DNA of 35,247 nucleotides from Gammaproteobacteria bacterium (GTDB lineage: Bacteria; Pseudomonadota; Gammaproteobacteria; Pseudomonadales; Azotimanducaceae). Within the stretch, counting starts at the first letter, position 1. The number at the start of each line of letters is the position of its first letter. Where the stretch lies: contig JAPPIX010000195.1 of NCBI GenBank assembly GCA_028820495.1, positions 1 through 35,247 on the forward strand, given 5' to 3'. The translations under genes and the position numbers were made by a program. Shown here piece by piece: positions 2,240 through 32,685 of the stretch. Below the pieces are notes generated by a model that had not been told where the DNA came from, did not search any database, and worked only from the letters and a program-made list of their open reading frames with translations.

Positions 2240-2688
2240 GGCTAGTTCGTCGGTAGTTGCGGAAACGCCGATTGTAGATCATTCCGCCGGTCTCGGTCGG
2301 CTGCTATGCACTTCGCCGCCGTCATGTATCTTCCTTCACGACGGGCGTTCGTCGAGTTGACCATGGCCCCATCATTCCAAGCGGCTTAAGCCGTTGATTG
2401 GGACCACGGCCTAATCATCCCAACTCAGGCCGTGAGAGTTCTTTGCAGCACCGCGTGCCAATCGCGAACTGGCGAGCTACCCCGTGCACTTGAGCTACGG
2501 GATCTTGTCCTAGTCGCCAAAGGGCAAGCTCTATCCGAAGGCCGAATTCCTGCATCCTCACAACAGCCCTCAGGAATTGAAAGGCAGGCTGGCTGCTATC
2601 CCGCTGCGCCACCTAGTCAATCAGTGATTGGCCATGCTAGTGTGCTTGGGCGATGTGCGGTGAAAGCGCTCAACGAAAGGAGTTGTTC
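2240..2688. other. Intergenic region with two long perfect hairpins
   Basis: Between the divergent VOC and RecQ-like genes. It contains the 12-bp palindrome CGGCTTAAGCCG at 2382-2393, an inverted repeat CACGGCCT/AGGCCGTG at 2405-2412 and 2427-2434 (14-nt loop), and an inverted repeat AATTCCTG/CAGGAATT at 2545-2552 and 2571-2578 (18-nt loop). Short ORFs cross it but none has family resemblance or a convincing ribosome site. The minus strand has scattered tRNA D-arm-like words but no complete tRNA. It must carry the promoters for both flanking genes. Confidence 0.5.
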
Positions 2689-4764
2689 ATGCAGTATGAT
2701 GGCCAGCGGGCGCTGGAGCTGTTGAGGTCTGGGACCGGAGTCTCCGGCATCTCCTTTCGTCCTGGGCAGGAAGCTGCCGTCCGTCACGTCGTGGAGGGGC
2801 GCGGACGGATTCTCGTCGTACAGAAGACCGGATGGGGCAAGAGCTTCGTTTACTTCATCGCAACCAAGCTGTTGCGCGAGGCAGGAGCCGGACCCACCCT
2901 GTTGATCTCGCCGCTCTTGGCGCTTATGCGGAACCAGATTGCAGCCGCGGAGCGCATGGGAGTCGTTGCCGACCGAATTACGTCGGATAACAAGGAACAT
3001 TGGGCGGAGGTGGAAGCGCGCCTCTGGCGTGATGAAGTGGATGTTCTGCTAGTCTCGCCGGAGAGGTTCGGCAATCAGGACTTTCGCGACGGTGTACTAG
3101 CGGAAATTGCTGAACGGGTCACTTTCCTCGTCATCGACGAAGCCCACTGCATCTCGGACTGGGGTCATGACTTCCGACCCCACTACCGACTGATTGAGCG
3201 CGTTGTAGGGGCGTTGCCTCCGAATCTCCGGGTGCTGGCGACGACCGCAACCGCGAACAATCGCGTGACGGACGACCTCCGTCAGGTACTCGGCCCGAAC
3301 TTGCAAGTGTCGCGGGGGGATCTCAACCGACCTTCGCTCATGCTTCAGACAATGCAAATGCCCGGGCAGTCGGAAAGGCTCGCGTGGCTTGCCGCTCAAG
3401 TGCCCAAGCTGCCCGGTCACGGGATTATCTATACGCTCACCATTCGGGATGCGAACCAAGTGGCAGAATGGCTCCAAACCAAAGGAATCCAGGTGGAAGC
3501 CTACACGGGGCAGACAGAGAACGACCGTCGCGAGGAACTGGAGCAGGCATTGCTTGACAACCAGATCAAGGCGTTGGTGGCAACCACAGCACTCGGAATG
3601 GGATTCGACAAGCCGGACCTCGCATTCGTGATTCATTACCAAAGCCCACCGTCGGTGGTGCACTACTACCAGCAAGTGGGCCGCGCCGGACGTGCGATGT
3701 CCGCCGCTTATGGAGTACTTTTGAGCGGCCAGGAGGAGACTGAAATTGCGGACTATTTCATTGACAGTGCGTTTCCGACGCCGGATGAAGTTCACACAGT
3801 AATCGAAGCACTTGAGACGCATCCAAATGGCCTTTCGATTCCAGCGCTGCTTGGGGAGGTCAATGTTGGCCAAGGCCGCATCGAAAAGACGATTCAGCTA
3901 CTCTCTCTGGAGTCCCCAGCCCCTGTGGTTAAGGAGGGTAGTAAGTGGCAACTGACTGCCGCTGCATTGAGCAGTGAATTCTGGGCGCGAGCGGAACGCC
4001 TAACCCGCCTTCGGCGTGAGGAGCAACGCCAAATGCAGGAGTACGTGGAACTGGAAGAAGGACATATGGCATTTTTGATTCAGGCGCTGGATGGTGAGCT
4101 TGAGCACGTCACTCCGCCGGAGCTGCCGCCCCTGCCTACTGGCACCTCGAAAGACCTAGTGCGCGACGCGGTAACATTCCTCCGTCGTACCAACTTGCCT
4201 ATTGAACCGCGCAAAAAATGGCCCCTTGGCGGCATGCCGCAATACGAAGTGAAAGGACACATTCCGTTAGAGTACCGGGCTGAGGTCGGTAGGGCGCTCT
4301 GCATCTGGCGCGACGCTGGCTGGGGTGAGCTTGTTCGAGATGGCAAGTATGATGATGATCGATTTGCCGACAATTTGGTCGAAGCCTGCCTGAAGCTGAT
4401 GGAGCGATGGGATCCACAACCGGCACCCGAGTGGGCGACATGCATCCCTTCTCTACGTCACCCAAATCTGGTGCCGGAGTTCACAGAACGCTTGGCGACG
4501 CGACTGGGCCTGCCATTTCATCAAGTGCTGGAGAAGGCCGAAGATCGGGCTGAGCAAAAGTCGATGGCGAACAGCACGCAACAGGCCCGCAATGCGGACG
4601 GCGCCCTAGCCGTCTCGTCAGAGTCACTGCCAGTGGGACCTGTCTTGCTAGTGGACGACATAGTGGATTCGCGCTGGACGTTGACGGTCGCCGCTTGGTT
4701 GCTACGTTCGCACGGAAGCGGTGAGGTATGGCCGCTCGCACTGGCCCAAACGAGCCGCAACTAG
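2689..4764 (+). CDS. RecQ-like DEAH-type DNA helicase with C-terminal phosphoribosyltransferase-like domain
   Basis: 691 residues from the ATG at 2689, chosen for its Shine-Dalgarno (aaaggag, 6 nt upstream); the frame is open 12 codons further upstream. Superfamily-2 motifs appear in order: motif 0 'RPGQEAAV', Walker A KTGWGKS (about 46-52), DEAH with the RecQ extension [11 protein letters not shown] (about 150-163), TATAN, motif IV 'GIIYTLT', motif V '[14 protein letters not shown]', motif VI 'QQVGRAGRA'. The zinc-binding cysteines and HRDC domain of classical RecQ are missing. The last 45 residues contain [20 protein letters not shown], the PRPP-binding loop of type I phosphoribosyltransferases, so the protein is a helicase-PRTase fusion. 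It probably unwinds 3'-tailed DNA. It is the first gene of an operon with the DprA-like gene (37-bp overlap). This combination differs from housekeeping RecQ and suggests an accessory DNA-processing or defence role (inference). Confidence 0.88.
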
Positions 4765-6299
4765 TGTTCAGCGATATCTCATCCAACACCCAGGCGATCT
4801 TGCTGTTGACCGCTCCGTTGATTGACGGACGGCGCAAAGGATCCAGCAAGCCTCTGACTCAGGGCGAGTATCGTCGGCTCGCGCGCCGGCTCCGGGATCT
4901 GGAACGGGAGCCAGCCGACCTGCTGAATTCCGGCGCTGGCGCTTTTTTAGCGGAATGCGCCTTTGGTATCGAACCCCGGCGACTTGAGCAGCTTCTGGGT
5001 CGGGGGTTTCTCCTCAGTCAGGCATTGGAACGATGGCGGTCGCGGGCAATCTGGGTGGTGAGCCGCGCCGATTCAGGCTATCCCCAACGATTGAAGCAGT
5101 GTCTGGGGGATGGTGCGCCGCCGATTCTCTACGGTTGCGGTGACGCCTCAACCCTGAACGCAGGTGGCATCGCGATCATCGGTTCCCGGAACGTTAGTGA
5201 ACAACTGATCCAGTACACCGAAAATGTAGGAAGACTGACTGCCGAGGCGCGACGCTCAGTGGTATCCGGTGGTGCCAGAGGGATCGATCAAGCTGCCATG
5301 CGCGGGGCGTTGGACGCAGGCGGAGGTGTTGTTGGCATCTTAGCCAACGGTCTGGAAGCGGCGTCGGTGCGCAGGGAGAATCGGGAGCCGTTGATGGATG
5401 GACGATTGGCCTTGATAAGCGCACATGATCCTGCCGCTCGCTTCAACGTTGGACACGCCATGCAGCGCAACAAGCTGATCTACGCGTTAGCGGACGCCGC
5501 ACTGGTGGTTAACTCGGATTACAAACGAGGCGGTACTTGGGCAGGTGCCACGGAACAGCTAGAGAAGCTCAAGTTCGTTCCGGTGTACGTGCGCATGGAT
5601 GACCACACGAGCAAAGGCCTTACCGAGTTAAAGCGGCTAGGCGCGAGGCCGTGGCCCAATCCGAAGACGGCGCGGGAGTTGGAGGAGAGCCTCAGTTTGC
5701 CCACCACTGTTGCGTCTGCAGCACCAGGGCCTAAGTCGAATTCGTTGGATTTCCGCGGCGAGCCGGGGCCGCTCGAACGCGTTCAATCGGCCAAGGTCGC
5801 AGCAACGAGTGAGCCCCAAGTTCCCGCATGCCCATCGCCCGCTGATGAGTTGTTCGCAAAGTTCGCAGAGTTACTCGACCAAATGGACGGACCTCGAACC
5901 GATACCCGTATCGCCGAGGTGCTGCAGATTCCGAGGCGCCAAGCCAGCACATGGCTGAAACGCTACATGGAATTGAAGCTCGAAAAGCTATTCGAAAGTT
6001 CGAGTGCAAACAAAGCAGTGGCTGAAGCCGCCGAAGAGCTGAATCTGCCGGCACGCCAAGTGGGTAGTTGCCTGAAGCACCTGCTCGACGCGGGCGTGAT
6101 TGAGAGGCTTCCACAGTCCCGACCGATCAGGTATCGCTCCGCCGCTTGTTCAAGCTCAGCTTCATCTAAGAGCTCTTCATCCACGATTGGATCAGTTGAA
6201 ACCTCTTCCGATCGGCTAGCTAATTCCGCCAGCTCTGTCGATGCGGGGACTCCAGTTCAGGCGACAATGGAGTTTCAAGAAACAGCGAATCCGAAGTGA
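4728..6299 (+). CDS. DprA/Smf-like Rossmann-fold DNA-processing protein with C-terminal winged-helix repeats
   Basis: 523 residues. The DprA core is clear: '[11 protein letters not shown]' (about 147-157), '[22 protein letters not shown]' (about 178-199), GILANGLE, '[19 protein letters not shown]', then [12 protein letters not shown], the Rossmann-like ssDNA-binding fold that in competence loads RecA on incoming ssDNA. An N-terminal helical part (1-105) precedes it. After a low-complexity linker, residues about 365-460 hold two short winged-helix-like units ('[21 protein letters not shown]' and '[25 protein letters not shown]'), then a Ser-rich tail. The ATG at 4728 overlaps the helicase gene by 37 bp and has GGTGAGG just upstream; a GTG at 4764 sharing a base with the helicase stop is the alternative. 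It is larger than chromosomal DprA (about 360-400 aa), and its pairing with a helicase-PRTase argues for a specialised module. Confidence 0.85.
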
Positions 6300-19728: not shown

Positions 19729-21054
19729 GTGCCAAAACGTTACCACAACGTCATTCGTTTCACATCCTCCGGAAGGCGACGCGTCGAGGCCGAGTTCACG
19801 GGCGCGGAGGTCACCGCCAACGGCGGCGCCCCGCTGCTGGCCGAGGCCGACCGGCGCCTGGGGCTGACGGAGGCGGCGGCCCGGGCGATGGGCGACGACC
19901 GGCGGCGCAAAAGCGTGGTGCATTCCACCATTTCCATCGTGCGGCAGCGCCTGCACGCCCTGGTCCTAGGGCACGAGGACCTCAACGACCACGGTGCGCT
20001 GCGGCGCGACGCGGCGCTGCAGGCGGCGGCGGGGCGGGACGGCGAGCTGGCCAGCCCGTCAACGCTGTGCCGGTTCGAGCGGCGGTCGTCGCCTTCGGAG
20101 GCGGCGGCGCTGCATGGGGTTTTGTTCGATCAGTTCGTGCAGGCCCACCCGGTCCCGCCGAAGCGCGTGGTGCTGGACTTCGACGCCACCGACATCCTTC
20201 TGCACGGGATGCAGGCGGGCCGCCATTGGCACGGCCACTACCGAAACTACTGCTACCTGCCGCTTTACGTGTTCGCGGGACGGCACCTGCTGGTGGCGGC
20301 GCTGCAGCCGAGCGACCGGGACGCGGCGTGGCGGGCGGGCGCCGTGCTGGCCCTGCTGGTCAAGGCGCTGCGCGCCGAGTGGCCGGGGGTGGAGGTGGTG
20401 TTCCGGGCCGACTCCGGCTTCTGCCGCCGGCGCATCCTGCGCTGGTGCGAGTCCCGGGGCGTCGGCTACGTGGTGGGGCTGCCGTCCAACAGCGTCCTGG
20501 CGAGGCTCGCCGCCCCGGCCGTGGAGGCGGCCGCCGCGCTGCACCGCCTCAACGGCGGCAAGCAGCGCCTCTTTGACGACTTCGAGTACGCCGCAGGCGC
20601 CTGGCCGCGCCGGCGGCGGGTCGTCGTCAAGGCGGAGCACACCGGCCTGGGCCCCAACACCCGCTTCGTGGTCACCAACCTGGACATGGCCGACGGCCCG
20701 CAGGGGCTCTACGACGGCATGTACTGCGAGCGCGGCGACATGGAGAACCGCATCAAGGACCAGCAGCTGGGCCTGTTCGCCGACCGGGCCTCGTCGAGCG
20801 ACTTCGACGCCAACCAGCTCCGCCTGCTCCTCAGCGGCCTCGCATACACCCTCATCGAGGGGATGCGCCGCATGGCCCTGGAGGCGACCGAGCTGGCCAA
20901 GGCGTCGCCGAACACCATCCGGCTGACTCTGCTCAAGGTGGGTGCCGTGGTCCTGTCCAACACCCGCCGGGTGCGCCTGTTGATGAGCCGCTCGCACCCC
21001 AACCAGGCCCTGTTCCGCCGCGTCGCCGCCGCCCTCGCCGCGCAGCCGCCCTGA
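19729..21054 (+). CDS. IS1380-family DDE transposase
   Basis: 441 residues from a GTG at 19729 with GAGGA eight bases upstream. Catalytic triad candidates are in the expected family motifs: 'VLDFDATD' (D150/D152), 'FRADSGFCRR' (D228) and 'YCERGDMENRIKDQQLGLFADR' (E339). The N-terminus has the usual 'GLTEAAARAM.D.R....V.HS....RQRLHALVLGHEDLNDH' DNA-binding region. No frameshift or early stop, so the element may be active. The coding sequence is extremely GC-rich and generates long antisense frames that are not genes. Confidence 0.95.
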   Translation: MPKRYHNVIRFTSSGRRRVEAEFTGAEVTANGGAPLLAEADRRLGLTEAAARAMGDDRRRKSVVHSTISIVRQRLHALVLGHEDLNDHGALRRDAALQAAAGRDGELASPSTLCRFERRSSPSEAAALHGVLFDQFVQAHPVPPKRVVLDFDATDILLHGMQAGRHWHGHYRNYCYLPLYVFAGRHLLVAALQPSDRDAAWRAGAVLALLVKALRAEWPGVEVVFRADSGFCRRRILRWCESRGVGYVVGLPSNSVLARLAAPAVEAAAALHRLNGGKQRLFDDFEYAAGAWPRRRRVVVKAEHTGLGPNTRFVVTNLDMADGPQGLYDGMYCERGDMENRIKDQQLGLFADRASSSDFDANQLRLLLSGLAYTLIEGMRRMALEATELAKASPNTIRLTLLKVGAVVLSNTRRVRLLMSRSHPNQALFRRVAAALAAQPP

Positions 21055-21239: not shown

Positions 21240-22005
21240 GGTAGGCCGCGCCGCCGGATTCGGGCGCAGTACCACAACCACACACGCCTGTCGTCGCGTC
21301 CTAAGCCTACCACTAAGGGATCGTTGTGTGGGTCACGGCTGCCGCGATGACAATCATCGTCACCCTGACTGGCTAAGCGGCGTACCACCAGTCCCAATCC
21401 AACGTGAAGCGGCGTCAGATCGCCTTGTGTGTGCTTATCCCGATCCAACGCATCCACCACCGCCTCCACCCGTCTAGGACACTTTTTGTTGGGCTCGACG
21501 GCCCAACGCCCCCACACGCAAAGCGCCGCAGCCGACCCGCGCTGAACGTCCACATCGATCATGACGTTGCGCCCGGTCAGGCGGAGGAGCGGCATATCGA
21601 GGGGGCCACATCTACTTCTCTGAGCGTACGCGGACGCACAGAATGGTGAGGTCTTCGGCCGCTTCCGCGCCGAAGTTGTCCTGCTGCGCTCAGTTCGCCG
21701 AAGTGCAGCGCCATTTCCGATCAGTGTCGCTCGGGGCCCGCGGCCGACCGCTTGCCCTAACTAGCCGCCGACCAGTACCGCCATCCCTGCGTGCTACCTA
21801 CGCTTTCTCGCCACTCAGAGCGTCTTTGGTGTCGCTCCATGCCCGCAATCCTGTTAGGATGCCCCGCGAGCAACCTTGCGAGGTCCTGGCTGCCAACGGC
21901 GGACCGCCCCACGGTGGAGGAAAGCCTGCCTTGACGCACAAAGCCCAGCACACGGACGCTACCCTCCCCGCGTTTGAGGACAGCAAAGTGCCCCCAAGGC
22001 AAACC
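21240..22005. other. Intergenic region upstream of sspB
   Basis: About 770 bp between the IS and sspB. The sspB frame stays open 121 codons upstream of the chosen start, and a 119-codon minus-strand frame ends at the IS border, but neither has recognisable homology or a plausible composition. It probably holds the ssp promoter together with degraded sequence. No RNA gene or clear hairpin terminator found. Confidence 0.4.
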
Positions 22006-22917
22006 ATGCGTTTTCAACCGGACCACGTAACCTTCGGCCGCCACGAGACGTTTCACCTCCGTTTCGGCTGGATTGCCAAGGGCCTAAACGCCTTGAAGCA
22101 AAATCCTGCCATCTTCTCTCGGGAAGACGCTACCGTTGACCTAGGTGTCGGGAAAAACATGGTTTCCTCCATGCGGTACTGGCTCCAAGCGGCTCAGCTA
22201 GTTCGTCCCTTACCCGAAGGCAGGGGATACGCAGAGACCAAACTTGCTCAAGTTGCCTTCGGAGAGGAAGGCGACCCGTTCTTCGAAGATGACGCGACGA
22301 TTTGGCTCATTCATTGGCTCTTGGCGTCAAATCCCACCGGCGCCACCACCATTTACTGGTTCTTCAACCACTTCCACAAGCCCGCATTCAGTTCGGACGA
22401 AGTGTCAGCAGAGCTATCGAACTACGTCCGCCGCGAAGCCGTGAAGCGAACGTCCCCGACAACGCTCGTGCGCGACGTGACCATGCTGTTGCGGATGTAC
22501 ACGCGCACGGCCTCGTCCTCCCGAATCGCGCTGGAAGACACACTTGACTCTCCTTTGTCGCTGCTAGACCTACTCCACCGGGTAGATGCTCACCACCTTA
22601 GTTGCACTCCCCAGTCCCGGTATGATCTCCCGCTACCCGTCTTCGCGTTCGCGATCTCCGAAGCTTTCGGCCAGCTAAACTCGCCACATGTCGCGATCCA
22701 AGACCTCATGTATAGCGGCACGAACCATTGCGCCCCTGGAGCAGTGTTCCGGATGACCGAGGAGGGCCTCACACACAAAATTGAGGAGCTTTGTGAGTTG
22801 TCGCCGTCGGACTTTCGATTCGATCGCACAGCTGGCGTGTATCAGCTCTATTGCCTCCGTCCTACCGCCCCATTGGAACATTTTCGAGACCGCCACAATC
22901 GACGGGTGGCCGCGTGA
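22006..22917 (+). CDS. sspB: DUF4007 family protein, SspB of single-strand phosphorothioation system
   Basis: 303 residues from the ATG at 22006 (AAGG six bases upstream); a GTG at 21988 with GAGGA spaced seven bases is the alternative. The N-terminus 'FGRHETFHLRFGWIAKGLNAL' is the hallmark of DUF4007, followed by 'VDLGVGKNMVSSMRYWLQAAQLV', which looks like an HTH, and 'ATIWLIHWLLASNPTGATTIYWFFNHF'. In Ssp systems the DUF4007 protein SspB is a DNA-nicking component that works with SspC and SspD to place a phosphorothioate in one DNA strand. Identification rests on the domain and on the diagnostic order DUF4007 - large ATPase - PAPS-reductase-like gene. Its stop overlaps the sspC start. The cysteine desulfurase SspA is not encoded here; a housekeeping IscS may serve. 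Confidence 0.85.
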   Translation: MRFQPDHVTFGRHETFHLRFGWIAKGLNALKQNPAIFSREDATVDLGVGKNMVSSMRYWLQAAQLVRPLPEGRGYAETKLAQVAFGEEGDPFFEDDATIWLIHWLLASNPTGATTIYWFFNHFHKPAFSSDEVSAELSNYVRREAVKRTSPTTLVRDVTMLLRMYTRTASSSRIALEDTLDSPLSLLDLLHRVDAHHLSCTPQSRYDLPLPVFAFAISEAFGQLNSPHVAIQDLMYSGTNHCAPGAVFRMTEEGLTHKIEELCELSPSDFRFDRTAGVYQLYCLRPTAPLEHFRDRHNRRVAA

Positions 22918-25900
22918 ACCTCGCCCAACGAATCAGCGTCAACGCCCGGTATACAAGGTCCACGAACGTAGAACGTGATCGAGGCTCCAGGACACTCATA
23001 GAGGCATACCTCCCAAGCCCTGGGGGCGTCGAACTCCTAGACGCTATCGCTGAAACGCTCGGCGACTCAGACGCGCCCCGCGCTTGGAGCGTTGTCGGGC
23101 CCTACGGCGCAGGGAAGTCGTCGTTCGCCTTGTTCCTGCATGAACTCCTCGGTGCCGGCCAAGTAAAGAAATCTGCGCAGACGGTTCTCGCAAAAGAGAG
23201 TCGGCGCGTTGCTCGGCGGTTTGCAAATCAGCGCCCTTGGTGTCGTGTCGTGTTGCAGGGCAGCGAGGAGCCCCTCCCGAAACGACTCATTTCAGCGTTG
23301 GATGACGCCGCCGTTTCCTATTGGGCGGGGCGACTAGGCCGCAAACCCGCAGTTCTTGAACGGATCCGCGCGGCGCGGGAATGCGGCAACTTGCCAGAAA
23401 GCGATCTGCTCGGGCTGATCGACGACCTGCAGGACGCGCTTGAGCAATCGGGAGCCGGAGGTCTGCTCTTGCTGTTCGACGAACTCGGCAAGTTTCTTGA
23501 ATATGAAGCCCGACAAGGCGGTGGCGGGATTTTTCTGCTCCAGCAGCTCGCGGAACGAGCCTTCAAAGGCGGCCCTACGAATCTTGTAATCCTCGTATTG
23601 CTGCATCAAGGGTTCGATCTCTACGCCCGAGGTCTCGGCGAGAGTCTGAGGAGCGACTGGACAAAAGTACAAGGCCGCTTCCAGAACGTCCCTTTCGTCG
23701 AACCGCCGGAACAGACTCTGCGCCTCCTCGCCACGGCTTTCGATAACAATCTGACAGAGCCACAAGACCGACAGGTTCGACAACGTGCCAAGGGGTTTGC
23801 CAAGGCACTGAGCGCCGCGAATGCGCTTCCACCGACATTGAACGCGGGCGAAGCTGCTGACTTATTCGCGCGCTGCTATCCCATCCACCCCATCGCACTT
23901 CTCCTCCTCCCCGACCTCTGTCATCGTTTCGCGCAGAACGAGCGAACTCTGTTCACTTATCTAGCCAGCCGAGAGCCGCATGGTTTTCGCGATGCAATCG
24001 CTTCGCTCAACAAGGTCGGCGAGTGGCTGCATCCCGCCTCAATCTATGACTATTTCACAAGCAATCAACCCGCCGTGCTCTCCGACCCGCTCAATCACCG
24101 CCGTTGGGTGGAGGTAGTCACTGCGGTCGAACGCGCTGACTCAATCGATGCCGCCCATGACAGGGCGCTTGGCCAGCCCTCCGATTCCGCTCTAGCAAAA
24201 GCAATAGGCCTGCTCAACCTAGTCTCCCGGGCAGGCGGATTAAGAGCATCCGAGCCTGTGCTCCGTCTTCTCACTCCCCGCGGGTCAGCATTCCGCACCA
24301 TCATCCAACGTCTGCGGAAAGCATCCGTGATCCAGTATCGGAAGTTCAGCGATGAATACCGGGTCTGGCAGGGTACTGACTTCGACATCGACGAACGCAC
24401 CACAATAGAAGCGGACAAGCTAGGATTTTTCAGCTTGGCGCAGGCCCTCAGAACCCGCAACGCCATCCCAGCCGTCGTAGCGCGACGCCACTCCATAGAA
24501 AAAGGCTCTCTCCGCTACTTCAACATCGAATTCGCCGATCCTGACGCACGGTCACTAGCGAACGACGGGGACGACTCTGTCTCACAGCGAACCCCTCCTC
24601 GCATTGTTTTCGTCCTTTCTGAGCGCCGGGACCACGAACAGGCATTCCACGCGATGCGTGCCGATGCTGCAGAAGGAGAACTCTGGGCGCTGTATCGTGA
24701 CGGCGCAACAATTCGTGCCGCCATTGCCGATGTGCTGAGTTTAGAGGCCGTCCAGAGAACGGCCCAAGAGCTTGCCTCCGACCCCGTAGCAGCCCGGGAA
24801 GTTCGTGAGCGCATAAATGCCGCGCGAGTCGCCGAGCACGACGCGGTCAAACTTCTCCTCGGCGACCCCGCCCAGTCCCAATGGTACGACGGACCCCATC
24901 GTCTCGACATCCCCAATCGCCGATGTCTCCAGTTCGAGTTGTCACGCATTATGGACCGCGTTTACAAAGACAGCCCGATCATCCGCAATGAACTGATCAA
25001 TCGGAACCGCCTCTCCCCCCAAGCCGCTGCTGCTCGGAACAAGCTCTTCCAACACATGCTCGACATGCGAACACAGCCAGACCTCGGCATCGATAAGTAT
25101 CCCCCGGAACGCGCGATTTATCGGTCCATACTGCAGGCTGGGGGATTGCACATTGAGACACCACAAGATTGGACCTTTGTTCCGCCTGTCGATGACTCTG
25201 ACATTTTGCGGCTCCGCCCTACATGGGACCGGCTAGACGACTTGATGGCCAGTTCAGAAGAGACGCCGATTACGATCGAATCGCTAAGTGATTCTCTAGC
25301 GGCTCCGCCAATTGGCCTCAGACGAGGAGTCTTCCCGATCCTCTTCCTACATTACTACCTCCTTCACCGATACGAGATTGCCCTTTATGAAGACGGCACT
25401 TACGTGCCGAAACTCAACTATGAGCATCTCGAACGCCTCGTCCGACGACCGGATCTACATTCGGCACAGCGTTTCAGGATCGCCGGTGTCCGCGCAGAGC
25501 TTTTCGACGAATATTGCCGCGCCCTGTTCGACCGACGTCTCGACACCGCTGATCCGCTACAGCTCGCACGCGCAATGGTCCAGTTCGTCGATGGGCTGGA
25601 CGAGTACACTCTGAAGACCCGTCGCCTTTCGCCCGATACTCTACTCGTCCGCGAGGCTCTTTACTTGGCCAAGTCACCTCAAAAGCTACTCTTCGAAGCC
25701 TTGCCTCGTGCCTGCGGCTACGGGTCGAATGACGACCTCAACGGATTCGGAGAAAAACTCCAAAACGCACTACGTGAACTCAGGAACGCCCAGTCCGATC
25801 TCTTCGAAGAGATGCGCCGGGCATTCTGCATGGCTTTCGACACCGATGAAACGACCCCACTCTCCCTCCTGCGAGAAAAGCTCCGCAGCAGGGCCGAAGG

Positions 25901-26402
25901 TTTGGACCGTTATACGATTGACACCGAGGGACTGCGCAGCTTCGTTCTCCGAGTCGCGAACCGCAGCCCTGACGATGATGGGGACTGGTTTGCCGGGGTT
26001 CTCCGAATCCTCGGTCGCAAGCCCACGGAAAAGTGGACCGACCAAGACCGTGCAACCGCTGAGTACCGCCTAGCGGAGTTCGCAGCTCGACACCTCGACC
26101 TTGAGAAGCTTAGGTTGCATTTCGGAGCATCGTCTCAACACGGCGGCGCCCACGAAGCGATCCTAGTCAAGCTCATCAGCACAACCGATGGCGAATTCGA
26201 AGAGGTGGTGGTTCTCAACGCCGACAAGGACAGAGCGATTAAGGAAACGCTCCGTGACATCGAAGCCAAACTTGCCACCATCGATGACGACGATCTTCAG
26301 ATTGCTCTCATAGCACGTCTGTCGAGCCACCTCCTCTCTGCCTACCGTGAAGCCCGCCTATCTACATCTAGGGAACAAGGTGAACTCAGAAGATCGCAAT
26401 AG
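22914..26402 (+). CDS. sspC: Large P-loop ATPase, SspC of single-strand phosphorothioation system
   Basis: 1162 residues from the GTG at 22914, which overlaps the sspB stop (GTGA) and has GGTGG upstream. Walker A is GPYGAGKSS (about 62-70) and Walker B LLLLFDE (about 184-190), followed by 'LGKFLEYEA'; the early part 'RYTRSTNVERD' and the arrangement of a P-loop close to the N-terminus with a very long helical C-terminal region recall BrxC/PglY-type large ATPases. As the middle gene between DUF4007 and the PAPS-reductase-like protein it corresponds to SspC, whose ATPase activity is needed for modification. The C-terminal 900 residues show no motif I can name. Composition matches sspB and sspD. 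Confidence 0.82.
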   Translation: MNLAQRISVNARYTRSTNVERDRGSRTLIEAYLPSPGGVELLDAIAETLGDSDAPRAWSVVGPYGAGKSSFALFLHELLGAGQVKKSAQTVLAKESRRVARRFANQRPWCRVVLQGSEEPLPKRLISALDDAAVSYWAGRLGRKPAVLERIRAARECGNLPESDLLGLIDDLQDALEQSGAGGLLLLFDELGKFLEYEARQGGGGIFLLQQLAERAFKGGPTNLVILVLLHQGFDLYARGLGESLRSDWTKVQGRFQNVPFVEPPEQTLRLLATAFDNNLTEPQDRQVRQRAKGFAKALSAANALPPTLNAGEAADLFARCYPIHPIALLLLPDLCHRFAQNERTLFTYLASREPHGFRDAIASLNKVGEWLHPASIYDYFTSNQPAVLSDPLNHRRWVEVVTAVERADSIDAAHDRALGQPSDSALAKAIGLLNLVSRAGGLRASEPVLRLLTPRGSAFRTIIQRLRKASVIQYRKFSDEYRVWQGTDFDIDERTTIEADKLGFFSLAQALRTRNAIPAVVARRHSIEKGSLRYFNIEFADPDARSLANDGDDSVSQRTPPRIVFVLSERRDHEQAFHAMRADAAEGELWALYRDGATIRAAIADVLSLEAVQRTAQELASDPVAAREVRERINAARVAEHDAVKLLLGDPAQSQWYDGPHRLDIPNRRCLQFELSRIMDRVYKDSPIIRNELINRNRLSPQAAAARNKLFQHMLDMRTQPDLGIDKYPPERAIYRSILQAGGLHIETPQDWTFVPPVDDSDILRLRPTWDRLDDLMASSEETPITIESLSDSLAAPPIGLRRGVFPILFLHYYLLHRYEIALYEDGTYVPKLNYEHLERLVRRPDLHSAQRFRIAGVRAELFDEYCRALFDRRLDTADPLQLARAMVQFVDGLDEYTLKTRRLSPDTLLVREALYLAKSPQKLLFEALPRACGYGSNDDLNGFGEKLQNALRELRNAQSDLFEEMRRAFCMAFDTDETTPLSLLREKLRSRAEGLDRYTIDTEGLRSFVLRVANRSPDDDGDWFAGVLRILGRKPTEKWTDQDRATAEYRLAEFAARHLDLEKLRLHFGASSQHGGAHEAILVKLISTTDGEFEEVVVLNADKDRAIKETLRDIEAKLATIDDDDLQIALIARLSSHLLSAYREARLSTSREQGELRRSQ

Positions 26403-27198
26403 CACTCCTAAACCAGTGGAGTTGAAGGAGACCCGGCACATCCTTGGGCTCTCGGGAGGCAAAGACAGCGCCGCATTGGCCATATACCTCAAACAGCAGG
26501 GTAGGGCGGATCGGATGGAGTACTTCTTCTGCGACACTGGCGCGGAACTCCCAGAGGTCTACGAGTTCCTTGATCGCCTTGAGGACTTCCTAGCACGTCC
26601 GATCACACGCCTCAGCAGTGGTCGCGATTTTGACCATCATCTGAAACGCTTCAACAACTTCCTACCCGCGCCGCACGCACGTTGGTGCACCCGTGTCATG
26701 AAGCTTGAGCCCCTTGAGGCGTACGTCGGTGACGACCCATGCGTGAGCTACATCGGAATCCGAGCCGACGAACAACGTAACGGCTACATCAGTCATAAAC
26801 CGAACATCAAGGCTGCGTACCCTTTCGTCGAAGACGGCATCGCACGAGCTGATGTCTTTCGAATCCTTGAGCACTCCGTAGGCATACCTGAATACTACCG
26901 CTGGCGTAGCAGGTCCGGCTGTTACTTCTGCTTCTTCCAACGACAGGACGAGTGGCTCGGTCTCGCCGACACACATCCCCATCTCTTCGAACGTGCCAAG
27001 CGCTACGAGAAGGTAGATCCTTCCACCGGGAAGCAGTTCACTTGGGTGCAAGGAAGATCGCTGGACGACGTACTTGCACACAGAGAGCAAATTGAGGCAA
27101 CCAAACTCGCACGGGAAAGACGGTCAGGAGAATCGTGGCAGCAAATCATTCTCGACGACGATGAAGACGACCAAGCCTGCCTGATTTGCACGCTCTAG
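26380..27198 (+). CDS. sspD: PAPS reductase/DndC-like sulfur transferase, SspD
   Basis: 272 residues from a GTG at 26380 (AGGG six bases upstream) that overlaps the end of sspC; a GTG at 26347 is also in frame. The PP-loop 'ILGLSGGKDSAALA' (SGGKDS about 25-30) marks the ATP-pyrophosphatase fold of PAPS reductases and DndC. Downstream cysteines at about 103 (RWCTR), 181 and 184 (GCYFC) are positioned as iron-sulfur ligands, as in DndC/SspD; 'YIGIRADEQRNGYIS' is also typical. A second CxxC ends the protein (ACLICTL). It should activate the backbone phosphate by adenylation and deliver sulfur. It ends 15 bp before the convergent operon, inside a hairpin. Confidence 0.9.
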   Translation: MNSEDRNSTPKPVELKETRHILGLSGGKDSAALAIYLKQQGRADRMEYFFCDTGAELPEVYEFLDRLEDFLARPITRLSSGRDFDHHLKRFNNFLPAPHARWCTRVMKLEPLEAYVGDDPCVSYIGIRADEQRNGYISHKPNIKAAYPFVEDGIARADVFRILEHSVGIPEYYRWRSRSGCYFCFFQRQDEWLGLADTHPHLFERAKRYEKVDPSTGKQFTWVQGRSLDDVLAHREQIEATKLARERRSGESWQQIILDDDEDDQACLICTL

Positions 27199-27207
27199 TG
27201 TGCAAAT
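27184..27207. terminator. Hairpin at the convergent ends of sspD and the minus-strand operon
   Basis: Perfect 8-bp stem ATTTGCAC/GTGCAAAT with an 8-nt loop that contains the sspD TAG stop. No T-run follows on either strand, so it is a candidate bidirectional transcript end or an mRNA-stabilising structure rather than a classical terminator. Confidence 0.5.
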
Positions 27208-27213
27208 TGGCGC

Positions 27214-28401
27214 CTATTCATCCTTGATGCGAAAAGCGTAAACATGCCCTTGGCGGTCGATCCCTAATCTCACCTTTGATTCTGGAGCCTTCGATTCTAC
27301 GAGCAAGGACGCCCTAACTCCTTCAATTTCCCAAAGGGGGGTGCTCGTATCCGTTCGCTCCGTGAATTGAGCCACACACAGTGCCGAGGCTGTCTCAAAA
27401 ATCGGCATGTAACCCACTGATGTCGCTAGCGTTCCCGTTTCGGCTTCCAATCTCTCTCGAATTGCTTCCCATTTGATCTCGTCAGCGATTTGGCGATTCT
27501 GGGAGTCGTGGCAGGAGAAATAGTGGGCGATCAGTGCTCCCCCGTCCTCACTGGCGAGACAAAGAGAGCGCATCCTCTGCCCTACCGCAGTCAGCGCGTA
27601 TCCCGACAGGCCGTGCCGTTCTCTCTTGCTCAAGATCCCTGCATCCACCAGAAGTTCCAACCGGGGGACGAGAAACCAAGACCAAGGTTGTCCTAAGTTG
27701 AGCTTATCGCGGACATTTCTCTCCGTGATCTTCAGGAGCTCGTTCAGCCGCGTCCGTACCATGGCGGTCGCTTGGTCCGGCCTGACTCCACGGGCAGTCA
27801 GCAGATATCTCCAGCTTTCCAGAAGAAGCTGTACACGGTTCCCTACCGAAATCTCGAAGTCTAGGTCGTCCGGTAGTTGACTCAGGAAAGCCCAGACCCA
27901 GTCGCAATCAACATCAAGCAACCATAGTCCGAGGAACAGCGCATCACGATCACCGATCACAAATGGATCATCCTTTACCCAGCCGGTAGACAAGCTAAGG
28001 CGTCCTCTAGCCAAAAGAAGATTCTGCCTCTTATCTACGAGCTTCAAGGTGTGCGCTAGCCCTAGAGCATCGTCGAAGTAGTCTTGCGTTAAGGCGCCTA
28101 CGGACGAAGGTAGCCTCTGATCTGATAGCAACAGGTCCTGGTGTTCCACAGGGACAGACTGACCGTTCTGAAACGCCCGCCTCCAAGGTGAGTACCTTGG
28201 TGAGCCGGGCTTTTTCAATAAGTACTCTCGAAACGCTCCTACATGCTCGTTCGGCACTTCCGTCTTTCGGGTGAGGAATGCCTTGACTTCCTTCGCAACA
28301 TCTTCAGCGAAACTCGATCGACCATGATGAGTGTACGAGGTCGCTAAAACCGCCACTCCGTAGCGCATCATGTATAGCCGGAACGTGAGGGCGACTCTCA
28401 A
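27214..28401 (-). CDS. Unrecognised protein with winged-helix-like segment, last gene of the convergent defence operon
   Basis: 395 residues from a TTG at 28401, three bases after the HerA-like gene stop and with GAGG eight bases upstream; ATGs at 28371/28368 are alternatives. I do not recognise the family. Visible features: a helical N-terminal half with 'SSFAEDVAKEVKAFLTRKTEVP', a central Trp-rich region ('DCDWVWAFLSQLPDDLDFEIS'), and 'WFLVPRLELLVDAGILSKRERHGLSGYALTAVGQRM' (about 243-279), which looks like a winged helix-turn-helix with the phrasing 'vdaGil...yaLT..G'. The C-terminus has 'LLVESKAPESKVRLGIDRQGHVYAFRI', beta-rich. Tight linkage to the HerA ATPase suggests a partner or specificity protein (inference). 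Confidence 0.7.
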   Translation of the reverse strand: MRVALTFRLYMMRYGVAVLATSYTHHGRSSFAEDVAKEVKAFLTRKTEVPNEHVGAFREYLLKKPGSPRYSPWRRAFQNGQSVPVEHQDLLLSDQRLPSSVGALTQDYFDDALGLAHTLKLVDKRQNLLLARGRLSLSTGWVKDDPFVIGDRDALFLGLWLLDVDCDWVWAFLSQLPDDLDFEISVGNRVQLLLESWRYLLTARGVRPDQATAMVRTRLNELLKITERNVRDKLNLGQPWSWFLVPRLELLVDAGILSKRERHGLSGYALTAVGQRMRSLCLASEDGGALIAHYFSCHDSQNRQIADEIKWEAIRERLEAETGTLATSVGYMPIFETASALCVAQFTERTDTSTPLWEIEGVRASLLVESKAPESKVRLGIDRQGHVYAFRIKDE

Positions 28402-28404
28402 GGA

Positions 28405-29799
28405 TTAGACCTCTATGCCGCCGTGCGCAGTTACCCTAGGCCGCACTTCGACGACACACGAGCGCCATGCGTCACCGTGGCTCACATAAGCCTGTCCCTG
28501 AGCCAACTCCCGAATCAATTCCTGCACTGAAAGCGCCTGAGCGCCACTTGAAATCTTCTCAGGACCCCTACCTTTCGCGCTTCGGAGAACCGCTTCGATG
28601 TCTGGCTGTACAGTCAATCGGTGCGCTACGACGCAATCCACCTGAGAGAGAACCTCGGAATGGATAGCACTGGGTTGCTGTGATGTAAGCATCAAAGAGA
28701 GCCCGTGATTCCTTCCCTCCTTGACGTATTGGATTAACGTCGATGTGCAAGGGTTGGCCTTGCTCGGTGGTGCATATCCCTGTGCTTCATCTATGCAAAG
28801 TAACGTCCTAGGCACAGATTCTTCGATTGTCTGAGCTGCCGCAGCGCGTTCTTGATCCGAAAGGTCTCGTTGCAGCTTTAGTGTTTTGCCCGCTTCCGAC
28901 GCCGCCGACCGTAGATTGAATAGCTGCCTCACCAGAATGGCTGCGATCAGGCTGCGAGCAGGCGGGGACAGATCTCCTAACAGTAGTACTGTCACTTCGC
29001 CAGCTGCGACCATTGACGAAATCGAGGTCGGCGGCGACGAAAACAATGGATCCCGAGCCAAGCTCTGCATTCGGCTACGAAGTGCGCGTACCGTGGTCCT
29101 TTCAAATGTACCGTCTGTGTTCCTCTCATCTGAGAGGAACTCTATCAACTCGGCAAGACCCGCAACGTCACTTCCTGCCTTAGCATTCGTTCCGGACATG
29201 TAGCCTGCAGATTTGATGCCATCGTATGCAGCCAACAGAAGATGCCCAGTCGGGTCTCGAAACAGGTCAATATCGAATATGTGGGCGAAATCTTCTGGTC
29301 GCATCAGCGCCGTGTCTAGTGCGAATGCTCGATAGTGCGGCCTATAAAACCCCTGACGATGGCCTTCCGGGTAGTATGTCTTTATCGCTAGGTCAGTCTC
29401 TTGGAGTCCGAACGCGCCAAGCTTCGCTGACAAGCTGCGTCTTAGGGAATCATCTGCAATATGGGAGACGGGTACAGCAGCAAACTGATATATGTTCAAT
29501 GTGTCTAGCAAAAGGACGGCGCGGTCGCTCACGTTTTGACCGATGTTGGCCTCGAGATCCGACGCACCTAGGCTCTCTACTATCGATCCAAGCGTGTACG
29601 ATTTGCCCGAACCTCGCTGCCCGAATATCCCCACAACGATCTCACGCGCCAGACCGAGCATCACTGTTGGCCGCATTCCCTGCTCGCTCAAGCGTCCGAG
29701 ATTCGCGTGAGTTATTTTCTCCAAATCCGCCCGCTCACACCCAAGGCAGATCAACCCGTCGTCGTCCCGAAGGCTCGGCGATACCCGGTACCGAAGCAT
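28405..29799 (-). CDS. HerA/DUF87-like ATPase (hexameric DNA translocase type)
   Basis: 464 residues; ATG at 29799 with GGGAG eight bases upstream. Walker A GQRGSGKS (60-67), Walker B LLCIDEAQ (333-340), and the HerA-type sensor segment 'LMLTSQQPSAIHSEVLSQVDCVVAHRL' (about 369-395) identify a FtsK/HerA-superfamily motor; the N-terminal 'LGLAREIVVGIFG' region is the usual lead-in. HerA ATPases pump DNA and pair with nucleases such as NurA, Sir2 or PLD proteins; DptH/DndH, the restriction ATPase of phosphorothioation systems, is also of this general type. Here it follows two AAA ATPases and a PLD nuclease in one operon (18-bp gap upstream, 3 bp downstream), so it is a strong candidate for the motor of the restriction arm facing sspBCD. 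Confidence 0.86.
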   Translation of the reverse strand: MLRYRVSPSLRDDDGLICLGCERADLEKITHANLGRLSEQGMRPTVMLGLAREIVVGIFGQRGSGKSYTLGSIVESLGASDLEANIGQNVSDRAVLLLDTLNIYQFAAVPVSHIADDSLRRSLSAKLGAFGLQETDLAIKTYYPEGHRQGFYRPHYRAFALDTALMRPEDFAHIFDIDLFRDPTGHLLLAAYDGIKSAGYMSGTNAKAGSDVAGLAELIEFLSDERNTDGTFERTTVRALRSRMQSLARDPLFSSPPTSISSMVAAGEVTVLLLGDLSPPARSLIAAILVRQLFNLRSAASEAGKTLKLQRDLSDQERAAAAQTIEESVPRTLLCIDEAQGYAPPSKANPCTSTLIQYVKEGRNHGLSLMLTSQQPSAIHSEVLSQVDCVVAHRLTVQPDIEAVLRSAKGRGPEKISSGAQALSVQELIRELAQGQAYVSHGDAWRSCVVEVRPRVTAHGGIEV

Positions 29800-29817
29800 T
29801 TACGCGCTCCCTAGCCC

Positions 29818-30993
29818 CTACAGGAATTCCGTAAAGATCGCCTGAGCTGGCTTCAGGTCTTCATGATCGATTGTGTAGGAATTCCTTCGAGCTGCCTGAA
29901 CCGCGCATTCGTTTATCGCGGAAATAAAATTCCGAGGTAAACTCGCTGTAGGTGCACTCGTCGCCAACGCCACTAACTCGTCCATCGCGTCGTCGGTAAG
30001 CGGATACGATTCTAACCCTTTAGCAATATGGCCGGCCTCCTCCATCGCAGACTTCATCTTGGGATCGATTACAAGGGCGAACAAGTCAGTCAGGAACTGT
30101 CGGATATCTTCATCGCGCTGCAGATATTCCAATCCGTGAATGTTCGACCGGTTCAGACGAGTAATGATTGCCTCGGTGTATATGAACTCCGGAATGGTCT
30201 CCTCACGCATGCCGAAGACCGACAAGACGAACCCAACGACATCATTGTCGTCATCCGCCAACTTCCGGAAACCCTCCTGAAATGACTCCCGGCAGTCCAC
30301 GTTTCGCACATTCTGAAGTCCTTCCATTTCGTCAAAAAGGAACAGATAGTTGATGTCCTTTTGAACGAAGAGCCGCATGATTCCAACTAGGGCCCTATAC
30401 ATCTCGGATACGGTATCCATGTTCTTTGTGAGATTGTAGGATCCGAGTTCTCCCGAACTTAGTGAACCGCCGCACAACCACTTCCATAGTGCGATAGGTT
30501 CCCCCGCGTACCCCAAAGCCCGGACTGCGCGCGCCGTGTTGGCATCGCCAAAGTCTCGACGAAGGTTCGCCTCCAACTGAGGCCCTGCATTGTTTGCCAA
30601 GTACTCTTGCACGACCTCACGGACAGCCTCTAAGGTCACAGCCTCCATCATTTGCGCATGCAAGTAGCTGTAGTCCGTCTTCTCTTTGAACTCACAATCA
30701 ATAGGGCAACATCGCACCTCGTACGCCGTGTTTCTCTTGGCTTCTGGGCTTTCCTCAAGGTGATACTTGATGTTGAATAGCGTGTGCGTTTTCCCTGCCC
30801 CAAATTGTCCATAGAGGTATTTCTTTGGTTGACTCCCGAGCATGTAGCGCTCGCGGATGCTATCGATGATCGCCATATTCACGCCCGCCTTCCCAAAATA
30901 AGCGGCCCGATCATCAGGATTGATTCGAAAGTTGATTGAGAAGTTCTTTCTCGGCTGTCTAAGACAGAACCGCTCGCTTAGTAGTGTGGCCAT
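29818..30993 (-). CDS. P-loop ATPase B (BREX/ORC-like AAA type) of the convergent operon
   Basis: 391 residues; ATG at 30993 with GGGAG five bases upstream. Walker A GQFGAGKT (62-69) is followed by HTLFNIKYHL; Walker B is FLFDE (218-222) in 'YLFLFDEMEGL'. The N-terminus 'FSINFRINPDDRAAYFG' precedes the P-loop. The same P-loop phrasing, FGAGKTHTL, occurs in the first gene of the operon, so the two are likely ancient paralogues, both of the AAA class that includes ORC/Cdc6-like and BREX accessory ATPases. A C-terminal helical region ends in 'NFISAINECAVQAARR', resembling an AAA lid or winged helix. Its role is unknown; loader or regulator of the nuclease/HerA pair is an inference. 12 bp downstream of the PLD gene. 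Confidence 0.8.
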   Translation of the reverse strand: MATLLSERFCLRQPRKNFSINFRINPDDRAAYFGKAGVNMAIIDSIRERYMLGSQPKKYLYGQFGAGKTHTLFNIKYHLEESPEAKRNTAYEVRCCPIDCEFKEKTDYSYLHAQMMEAVTLEAVREVVQEYLANNAGPQLEANLRRDFGDANTARAVRALGYAGEPIALWKWLCGGSLSSGELGSYNLTKNMDTVSEMYRALVGIMRLFVQKDINYLFLFDEMEGLQNVRNVDCRESFQEGFRKLADDDNDVVGFVLSVFGMREETIPEFIYTEAIITRLNRSNIHGLEYLQRDEDIRQFLTDLFALVIDPKMKSAMEEAGHIAKGLESYPLTDDAMDELVALATSAPTASLPRNFISAINECAVQAARRNSYTIDHEDLKPAQAIFTEFL

Positions 30994-31005
30994 GCTATCT
31001 CCCTA

Positions 31006-31497
31006 TTATGCTTGGACCGTTTCAGGGGTCACACGCAGCTCGATTGCCAATTGCTCAAGTGCGTCAACCAAGATTTCACCGTCCCCTTTTGCCTCAATGA
31101 TGACGCCGAGTTCAAATGTCTGACTCGACCATTTGTACAGATTTGCTGAACCCAAAAGCGCATAACGGCGATCTGGAGTCTCGGCGACGTAGAACTTTGC
31201 ATGCAGCGTCGGCATGTAAAAGACTGAAGCGGCCGCAAGCTCCCGTACGTCGCGTACAAACTCCTCGTGTGGACTGCCCGGATCAGGCTCCCGCGTGATA
31301 ACTGTCAGATTCATGGATGATCTTGCGAACTTTCGGAGCAGATGTCGCGTAGTTGCCCTACGAAAGTCCAGATGCGTCATCCACGGGGACACCCAGTAGA
31401 CTGCCTTCGGATTGTCCTCGCCAAAAAGCCGCAACAGGAATGGCTCGACCACTTGGCCGACCCCGTACCGTAGCTGTATGAAATCAGTCCTGGCCAT
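31006..31497 (-). CDS. Single-HKD phospholipase D-like nuclease
   Basis: 163 residues from the ATG at 31497; a GTG at 31524 is in frame and neither has a strong ribosome site. One HKD-type motif is clear: 'LHAKFYV' (H99, K101) followed by 'ALLGSANLYKWSSQTFELGVII' (GSAN 116-119). The preceding region has 'AVYWVSPWMT' and 'LTVITREPDPGSPHEEFVRDVREL', typical of small PLD-fold nucleases such as Nuc/BfiI that dimerise to make one active site. It is expected to cut DNA without a metal ion. It lies between two AAA ATPases and upstream of a HerA motor, so it is the likely cutting subunit of this operon. Confidence 0.82.
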   Translation of the reverse strand: MARTDFIQLRYGVGQVVEPFLLRLFGEDNPKAVYWVSPWMTHLDFRRATTRHLLRKFARSSMNLTVITREPDPGSPHEEFVRDVRELAAASVFYMPTLHAKFYVAETPDRRYALLGSANLYKWSSQTFELGVIIEAKGDGEILVDALEQLAIELRVTPETVQA

Positions 31498-31554
31498 CTT
31501 GAACACTATGCTGGGGCCTACCACACACGTCGTTAGACTGCCAGACCACGTGAT

Positions 31555-32685
31555 TCACTTGAGTTCCACCAGCTCTGCGAGAACTCTTCGAGCGAAGGCG
31601 GGGGAAACAGTTTCGATCTTCCCCACCTCGATATCGAAATCCGCTTCACGTAACACTGCATCAAACGCCTGCATTATCGCCCTGGGCTTGAGGTCCCCAT
31701 GGTCTTTGATATCGTCGATGATTGTTCGACAGGACTCCTCCGTGAACGGAAAGAACGCGTCCACGGATTGATCGTCGATGCTCCTTGAGTGCTGCAGAAC
31801 GTCTCTAACAAACGTCAATGCATCGTTAGTGTCCATGGGCGGCAAGATCAGCACTTTCGTTCGCCCAATGCGGTCCTTCAACTCGGGGCTGAACCACTCC
31901 GGAAGACTCTCGGTCGGATGGCCGGAAAACGAGAGGATCATGGTGAGCCCGGTCGGACAAGCGTTAAATGTTGAATGAAGCCCCGTATTGATCTCGTGAC
32001 GGACACGAGGCGGGAGTTGGTCAATCCGCTGAAGTTCGTCAAGCAACCAAATCAACCTCGAATTGATCTGATTCTGTGATGCCGCAGACAAACCGAAGAC
32101 CCGAATGATTCCGATCAACACGCGTGTTGAGTCCTCCGAAGACACTATCCGTCGAGAAATGCCTAGCTTGCGACAGTCTGCAACCGGCAGAGCTTCGGCA
32201 CGTATCCAACGCATCGCCAGCTCTTGGTCAGGCGCGTTACCGATCACCAGCACGTTTAATGCTCTGGCAAGATCCGAGGACGTCTGGAGCAGGTCTCGCT
32301 CAAGTCTCGCGGACTCTTCTGCTGTCGCGATCTGTAGATAGGCCTCGGACAACTGTTCTCGATCTAGCTGTAGCGCAAAGCTCTTGTAAACGTCCACGAA
32401 TGAGCGTGGGTTCCGGGGGAACTCACTGTACACGGCGGCTAAGTGGCTTGTTCCCTGATTGTTTATCTCAGCCGCCTTGTTTGAGATGTAGTGCAGCGTG
32501 TGTGTCTTCCCGGCTCCAAACCACGACCAAATAGGGTGTATCGACGATGCGTTTTGGCGCGAGAGAGTTCGCAACAGCATTTCGACATCGCGATGGAATC
32601 GCTCCCTGTCAGCAATGAAGTCGCAAAGGTTCGGCTCGGGAACCACGAAAAACGGCCACCTGCGAAGGCTGAGATGATCGTACAT
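31555..32685 (-). CDS. P-loop ATPase A (BREX/ORC-like AAA type), first gene of the convergent operon
   Basis: 376 residues; ATG at 32685 without clear Shine-Dalgarno. Walker A SWFGAGKT (54-61) followed by HTLHYISNKA, Walker B WLLDE (213-217) in 'LIWLLDELQRI', then an arginine-containing 'PPRVRHEINTGL' and a sensor-like 'GLTMILSFSGHP'. N-terminal 'WPFFVVPEPNLCDFIADRERFHRDVEMLLRTL' resembles the lead-in of ExeA/ORC-type ATPases that recognise a nearby ring or DNA end. It shares the FGAGKTHTL core with ATPase B. The PLD gene follows 57 bp downstream. Function: probably DNA sensing or complex loading in the restriction arm (inference). Confidence 0.8.
   Translation of the reverse strand: MYDHLSLRRWPFFVVPEPNLCDFIADRERFHRDVEMLLRTLSRQNASSIHPIWSWFGAGKTHTLHYISNKAAEINNQGTSHLAAVYSEFPRNPRSFVDVYKSFALQLDREQLSEAYLQIATAEESARLERDLLQTSSDLARALNVLVIGNAPDQELAMRWIRAEALPVADCRKLGISRRIVSSEDSTRVLIGIIRVFGLSAASQNQINSRLIWLLDELQRIDQLPPRVRHEINTGLHSTFNACPTGLTMILSFSGHPTESLPEWFSPELKDRIGRTKVLILPPMDTNDALTFVRDVLQHSRSIDDQSVDAFFPFTEESCRTIIDDIKDHGDLKPRAIMQAFDAVLREADFDIEVGKIETVSPAFARRVLAELVELK

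Follow-up and report, generated by a model that had tools for sequence, protein, structure and literature searches.

Among described systems, the closest in kind to the genes considered here are the HerA/FtsK capture systems with Orc/Cdc6 ATPases and the BREX-related BRC systems. The former combine a HerA/FtsK motor with an Orc/Cdc6-like AAA+ ATPase, a nuclease and a winged helix-turn-helix (wHTH) protein, some neighbourhoods holding a second Orc/CDC6 protein (PMC10853773), and the latter have a HerA with an AAA+ partner and a GNAT nearby (PMC12839542). SspBCD, which places a phosphorothioate (PT) mark on DNA, has a partner in SspFGH, which damages DNA without that mark and whose Walker ATPase and translocase-like subunits adjoin sspBCD; one study reports that 2,211 of 2,678 sspBCD loci (83.9% is the authors' figure) have neither SspE nor SspFGH, and its authors raise the question of whether further restriction partners exist (PMC8092258). 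Here we describe a minus-strand operon of five genes, AAAa-PLD-AAAb-HerA-wHTH, at positions 27214-32685 of a 35,247-nucleotide contig from a gammaproteobacterium of the Azotimanducaceae (assembly GCA_028820495.1, contig JAPPIX010000195.1; the whole stretch is called the window below), lying tail to tail with a plus-strand sspBCD. These genes probably constitute an apparently undescribed restriction arm that is untied to any one DNA mark and spares marked host DNA.

Judged by gene order, the five genes are a conserved unit, PLD-AAAb-HerA-wHTH, often joined by AAAa. The order is kept in all 12 loci recovered (the window and 11 others), which span the window's own lineage, Acidobacteriota, Chloroflexota, one archaeon and one contig from a viral collection; because the same arrangement recurs in 11 other loci, chance is excluded as its origin. 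AAAa stands before PLD in six of the 12 and after the modification gene, or its piece, in two (L033, L034). It was not seen in L032, L053, L054 and L062: searches of the first three genomes for AAAa matched AAAb alone, and 17 of 50 kb were viewed of L062, a contig that may be viral or host DNA. Six loci came from a scan of a genome collection for the ATPase pair (116 stretches, seven relatives, six loci), namely L031 from Acidobacteria, L032 and L035 from Chloroflexi, L033 and L034 from Anaerolineae, and L036 from Aenigmatarchaeota. Whole-genome searches contributed L052, L053 and L054, all with the core, from a set of 400 genomes (four matching, the centre among them) and L055, also with the core, from a set of 347 (two matching, again counting the centre), and L062 was found by a HerA scan of viral contigs.

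The module is rare. Within its own phylum it occurs in 1 of 398 genomes and within its own class in 1 of 274, in each case the window's own, and in the phylum of L036 2 of 145 genomes matched, the second of which (L061) has a lone AAA gene and no core on its 5 kb contig. Besides L061, the count of 12 leaves out L063 (weak HerA only), L064 (an AAA gene with a tRNA-guanine transglycosylase (TGT) gene), L003-L007 (HerA relatives without the core) and L065, which is the L062 contig. Translated searches (tblastn) with AAAb and PLD against plasmids, and with HerA against phages, returned no match; HerA against plasmids returned distant HerA proteins, with no module in the five neighbourhoods opened. 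AAA relatives matched one plasmid, beside a TGT gene, and a further search was empty. Four viral-contig scans found no relative and one more only recovered the contig of L062.

In 10 of the 12 loci the module adjoins a modification gene or part of one (whole or in two frames in eight). SspBCD is the partner in the window and in L031, convergent with the module in both, and a gene for a class V aminotransferase, the class expected of a cysteine desulfurase, is also present in L031. A large N6/Eco57I-type methyltransferase accompanies L033 (1186 aa), L062 (1203 aa) and L053 (two frames, 190 + 785 aa), and L032 retains a 198-aa N-terminal part of one at its contig end; in L035, L055 and L052 the partner is an N4/N6-type methyltransferase. 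In each of five host genomes two methyltransferase families matched 4 to 16 places, one gene accounting for several of them, so random placement is an unlikely cause of the adjacency seen in most loci. A sequence-only reading of the window had proposed a candidate new or variant restriction arm of the PT system, a proposal that these loci support, with the restriction role still inferred, and the module indeed does not occur mostly without modification genes. That reading did not foresee that the arm would be commoner beside methyltransferases (8/12, two as pieces only) than beside SspBCD (2/12), or that AAAa would be unseen in 4/12. Next to the module in L052, two methyltransferase-like frames have an integrase gene between them (L052:5384-9869).

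The two SspBCD-associated loci differ sharply in how far their parts have diverged. Between the window and L031 the five arm proteins are 61-72% identical, but SspC is only 26%, SspB 28% and SspD 48% identical, and in a tree of SspC (13 rows) the window falls in a four-row set with L020-L022 (98/100) and L031 in a separate seven-row set (98/98), which argues that arm and mark have been re-paired. As read from these sequences, one putative restriction arm has met two PT lineages.

Scans of the window's proteins against PADLOC, Pfam and NCBIfam (E up to 1) place only HerA (Pfam DUF87) and PLD (Pfam PLDc_2) above a curated family cut-off, and so uphold the HerA/DUF87 motor named in the sequence-only reading. 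Two related AAA ATPases bracketing a single-HKD PLD protein were likewise recovered: AAAa and AAAb are homologous (25-26% identity; profile-profile probability 99.7%), and the PLD motif, HxKxY...GSxN...E, is one HKD half, its HxKxY present in 11 of 12 relatives and the twelfth frame cut short. Walker A and B are intact in every ATPase member (AAAa 8/8, AAAb 12/12). Matches of AAAb in the PDB are weak, to the helicase loader DnaI, ORC1 and clamp-loader RFC subunits (E 0.0025-0.08), as is a match to BrxD (4.6e-4), and a remote profile-profile match links AAAb to the ATPase region of SspC (95.4%). HerA carries Walker A, DEAQ and EGRNxGLS motifs, the first and last kept in 12/12 loci; its relatives include solved HerA structures, and its best named match is mad8 (PADLOC). 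PLD matches DrmC weakly (9e-5, PADLOC), under the NCBIfam cut-off. The PLD proteins of L033:543-1622 and L034:684-1769 have an extra N-terminal ~180 residues absent from the window's, and residues 14-69 of the former match the PADLOC candidate PDC-S50 (1e-7).

Trees of the ATPases and HerA do not agree throughout. The window's AAAa nests with those of L035, L036, L052 and L055 (97/94 with L052), and its AAAb (99/98) and HerA (92/90) group with L032, L033, L034, L053, L054 and L062. Approximately unbiased (AU) tests were borderline (p 0.03 and 0.055), so that a mosaic origin of AAAa, or its movement between modules, is suggestive only. On the Haloarcula plasmid pHsi139 (L064:7107-10176) a TGT gene and a hypothetical gene are followed by an ATPase distantly like AAAa, on a long branch, a gene order that points to a possible connection with 7-deazaguanine DNA marks.

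The fifth protein is kept in all 12 loci and had been called an unrecognised winged-helix protein; the absence of a recognised family stands, and the fold label comes without a significant match. The window's copy has no match in the three libraries, and across all 12 members the best Pfam match is just 0.065, with no family above chance. It is the most divergent of the five (12-25% identity to the window outside L031, versus 27-34% for HerA), and as the fastest evolving it fits what would be expected of a target reader. A model from a 12-row family alignment headed by the L033 homologue (pLDDT 90.0, pTM 0.91) is mostly helical with strand pairs; Foldseek with this model against two libraries returned nothing at E <= 0.001, and sub-threshold partial matches were to winged-helix pieces of ORC1, ESCRT-II and Cdt1, a viral winged helix and small viral helix-turn-helix proteins. 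An earlier, poor model (pLDDT 60.6) and its search were left out.

HerA proteins work as hexamers that translocate double-stranded DNA, and nucleases with a single HKD motif work as dimers. In the mechanism we propose, AAAa and AAAb, ATPases of ORC/Cdc6, RFC and DnaI loader type, would form an ATP-dependent loader or gate, and the fifth protein would bind a DNA site. At a site without the self-mark, which in the window is the phosphorothioate placed by SspBCD, the loader would put hexameric HerA on the DNA; HerA would then drive it into the small HKD nuclease, acting as a dimer, for cutting. Marked host DNA would be spared, the modification acting as a veto, and the arm would act on unmarked DNA like SspFGH instead of being activated by the mark like SspE. 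We infer this direction from the analogy with SspFGH and from the pairing with methyltransferases. Somewhat more tentatively, the loci might represent one constant loader-HerA-HKD machine whose self-mark has been swapped among SspBCD sulfur, two methyltransferase families and possibly an archaeal GNAT-made mark, the AAA+ pair loading HerA in ORC/Cdc6 or DnaI style and the fifth protein, perhaps with an exchangeable AAAa, serving as the adaptor that decides which mark is self. Related nuclease machines beside sulfur and beside methyl marks also offer a natural experiment, in which the mark-reading subunit could be found by part swaps.

The pairing with modification genes is also what bears on the foremost rival, that the module is a stand-alone HerA/FtsK capture system which works without any self-mark and occurs with modification genes only because both occupy defence islands. 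Its parts list equals that of published HerA/FtsK and Orc/CDC6 neighbourhoods (PMC10853773), neither L054 nor L036 has a recognised methylase or PT gene next to it, and the window holds a second defence system, PsyrTA. We nevertheless consider this explanation unlikely, given the 10 loci with an adjacent modification gene or piece, the tail-to-tail placement with sspBCD kept in two genomes despite their differing SspBCD, and the convergent methyltransferase of L052, which shares 4 bp with the last gene of the module. It is less probable still that the arm is a PT-activated effector, idle until host phosphorothioate is sensed and then attacking invading DNA: a PT partner is present in two loci and SspE is a precedent for PT-stimulated defence (PMC8092258), but a dedicated PT sensor leaves the pairing with two methyltransferase families unexplained, and the proteins have no homology to SspE. 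That the module is a divergent SspFGH or MADS-type system with its subunits split and reshuffled is the most improbable of the three, for although mad8 matches both HerA (5.5e-18) and the SspH C-terminus (4.4e-21), mad2 matches the large methyltransferase (L033 1.4e-29, L062 1.6e-25) and mad8 weakly matches AAAb of L035 (7e-4) and AAAa of L033 (0.005), matches of methyltransferases and of HerA recur across many families, the window's five have no SspF, SspG, SspH, mad1 or mad3-7 match in PADLOC, and profile comparison with SspF, G and H gives a Walker-region signal only.

Several observations weigh against a restriction arm with exchangeable marks. Because none of the 11 other ssp neighbourhoods inspected (19-20 kb each, phmmer) carries the module, the PT pairing rests on two loci. 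The L034 partner is only a 163-aa N-terminal piece of the large methyltransferase, and L054 has no recognised methylase, only methyltransferase-like pieces, two proteins resembling parts of the L033 enzyme (6e-14, 1e-10), one of them with an Mrr_N domain. In L036 (6596-8488) the neighbour is a GNAT domain fused to an ABC ATPase. The adjacency background models random placement, not defence-island clustering. The loader role of AAAa and AAAb leans on weak matches, and the fifth protein is a plausible winged helix on the sub-threshold resemblances of its model. All named genome relatives are metagenome-assembled genomes, and the window's own is a 418-contig assembly with 5.2% contamination.

The other ssp loci were sampled from one phylum, in which 11 of 398 genomes had SspC, at 12 places in all; the window is one of these and a further locus in its own genome another. 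A profile search of the 11 neighbourhoods outside the window found no module, only a PLD in L021 (4e-7) and a weak HerA in L024 (8e-4). They carry SspFGH in L022, L029 and L030, SspE in L020 and PbeA in L026; L023 and L024 match none of the queries used. Since the module is this rare (0/11), it explains at most a part of the orphan sspBCD loci, for which it is one concrete candidate restriction partner. Five of the 11 have another set near sspBCD, an SF2 helicase (542-557 aa), a GHKL/HATPase protein (586-633 aa) and a PLD protein (304-320 aa; Table 1), a candidate further restriction arm. The second sspBCD locus of the window's genome, L023 on contig C76, is distant, its SspC being 26% identical, and its neighbours encode a class V aminotransferase, a HATPase protein of 781 aa and a protein of 657 aa that matches nothing in Pfam. 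Elsewhere in the same genome, SspE gave three weak N-terminal matches (E 3e-5 to 1e-4), and SspF gave no match in a search whose controls were silent too.

The layout at the window itself agrees with the tight packing first described. All five frames are present, with gaps between open reading frames of 30, 12, 18 and 3 bp, the first widening to 57 bp, the value given in the sequence-only reading, should PLD begin at the ATG at 31497, which the start in its closest relative suggests, and SspB, SspC and SspD are clear in PADLOC. The two operons were said to be separated only by a hairpin; there are 15 bp between the stop codons of the fifth gene and sspD, and the hairpin is stable (-22.6 kcal/mol, z -3.08; 0/200 shuffles equally stable), but the sspD stop codon falls within its loop and stem. 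Because it contains this stop, lacks a T-tract and is absent from the list of the terminator scan, it is not a canonical intrinsic terminator. In 1.5 kb windows the module has 52-55% GC and sspBCD 57-62%, against 58-70% at 1-18 kb and 33-34.5 kb; this contrast, with a DDE transposase (DDE_Tnp_1_4, 2e-143; 19729-21054) just upstream of sspB, suggests that the region was acquired by transfer. PsyrT (1.1e-272) and PsyrA (1.1e-125), the known defence pair, lie at 2653-6299.

Table 1. Positions of the module, its neighbours in the window, and the helicase-GHKL-PLD sets near other sspBCD loci
Feature	Position	Strand	Description
AAAa	31555-32685	-	376 aa AAA+ ATPase; Walker A GAGKT, Walker B DE; paralogue of AAAb; in 8/12 loci
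PLD	31006-31524	-	172 aa, small single-HKD nuclease-like protein; start likely 31497; PLDc_2 above Pfam cut-off
AAAb	29818-30993	-	391 aa AAA+ ATPase of ORC/Cdc6, RFC, DnaI type
HerA	28405-29799	-	464 aa HerA/DUF87 translocase; DUF87 above cut-off
Fifth protein (wHTH)	27214-28401	-	395 aa; probable multi-winged-helix DNA binder; in 12/12 loci
Hairpin	27178-27212	none	Between the convergent operons; overlaps sspD stop codon
sspB	21643-22917	+	DUF4007, starting at residue 131; true start probably downstream
sspC	22851-26402	+	ATPase; PADLOC SspC, 1149.9 bits
sspD	26347-27198	+	PAPS-reductase-like; PADLOC SspD, 6e-104
Helicase-GHKL-PLD set	L020:15313-19710		
Helicase-GHKL-PLD set	L021:11175-15623		
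Helicase-GHKL-PLD set	L025:11316-15668		
Helicase-GHKL-PLD set	L027:12153-16490		
Helicase-GHKL-PLD set	L028:15774-20000		PLD cut by stretch end

Set against known systems, the five proteins map one-to-one onto none. In PADLOC the window's five have no match to SspE, F, G or H or to DndF, G or H, the same library recognising SspF, G and H in L022 and SspE in L020, and when the five families are compared by profile with SspF, G and H, the probability does not exceed 23%, the matches covering Walker A regions. Identity with SspFGH, SspE, DndFGH, DISARM, BREX or BRC was rejected on PADLOC, Pfam, NCBIfam and profile comparison. So was SspH as the source of the module's HerA (hhalign 2.5%, Walker A only), and weak DndH matches of relatives' HerA (L035 0.004, L062 8e-4) were read as shared HerA/FtsK motifs. 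SspFGH, with proteins of 600, 500 and 1800 aa (PMC8092258), differs from a module of five small proteins that it does not match in sequence. DISARM differs in its DrmA helicase and DrmB, both absent here, with only the weak DrmC matches of PLD in common, and BREX in its core PglZ and BrxL. For MADS, which comprises mad1 to mad8, the likeness is confined to mad8 for HerA and to mad2 for the methyltransferase family of six loci, where scanned (L033, L062). No title or abstract describing the five-gene set appears among the open-access matches listed.

The nearer comparisons are with the systems named at the outset. HerA of the module and HerA of L003, a Haloplanus plasmid locus that we take to be BRC from its gene list alone, belong to one family (hhalign 100%), and the GNAT part of the L036 neighbour resembles the GNAT of that BRC-like locus (3.6e-5). 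In contrast to BRC, the module has no PglZ, DUF6079, STAND NTPase, DUF4007 or TGT, and an HKD nuclease takes the place of PglZ (PMC12839542). The capture systems have restriction endonuclease (REase) and inactive-REase domains, the latter inserted in the Orc/CDC6 protein (PMC10853773); the module instead has a separate HKD protein as nuclease, intact Walker A and B in both ATPases and an adjacent modification gene, and no REase domain was matched by Pfam in the window's five proteins. Replacements of methylases by PT genes, in BREX type 4 and elsewhere, are a precedent for exchanging methylation for phosphorothioation (PMC12839542). The theme of HerA, Orc/CDC6, nuclease and wHTH protein is thus known, as is the exchange of PT and methylation; what is new is an HKD version of it with exchangeable modification partners.

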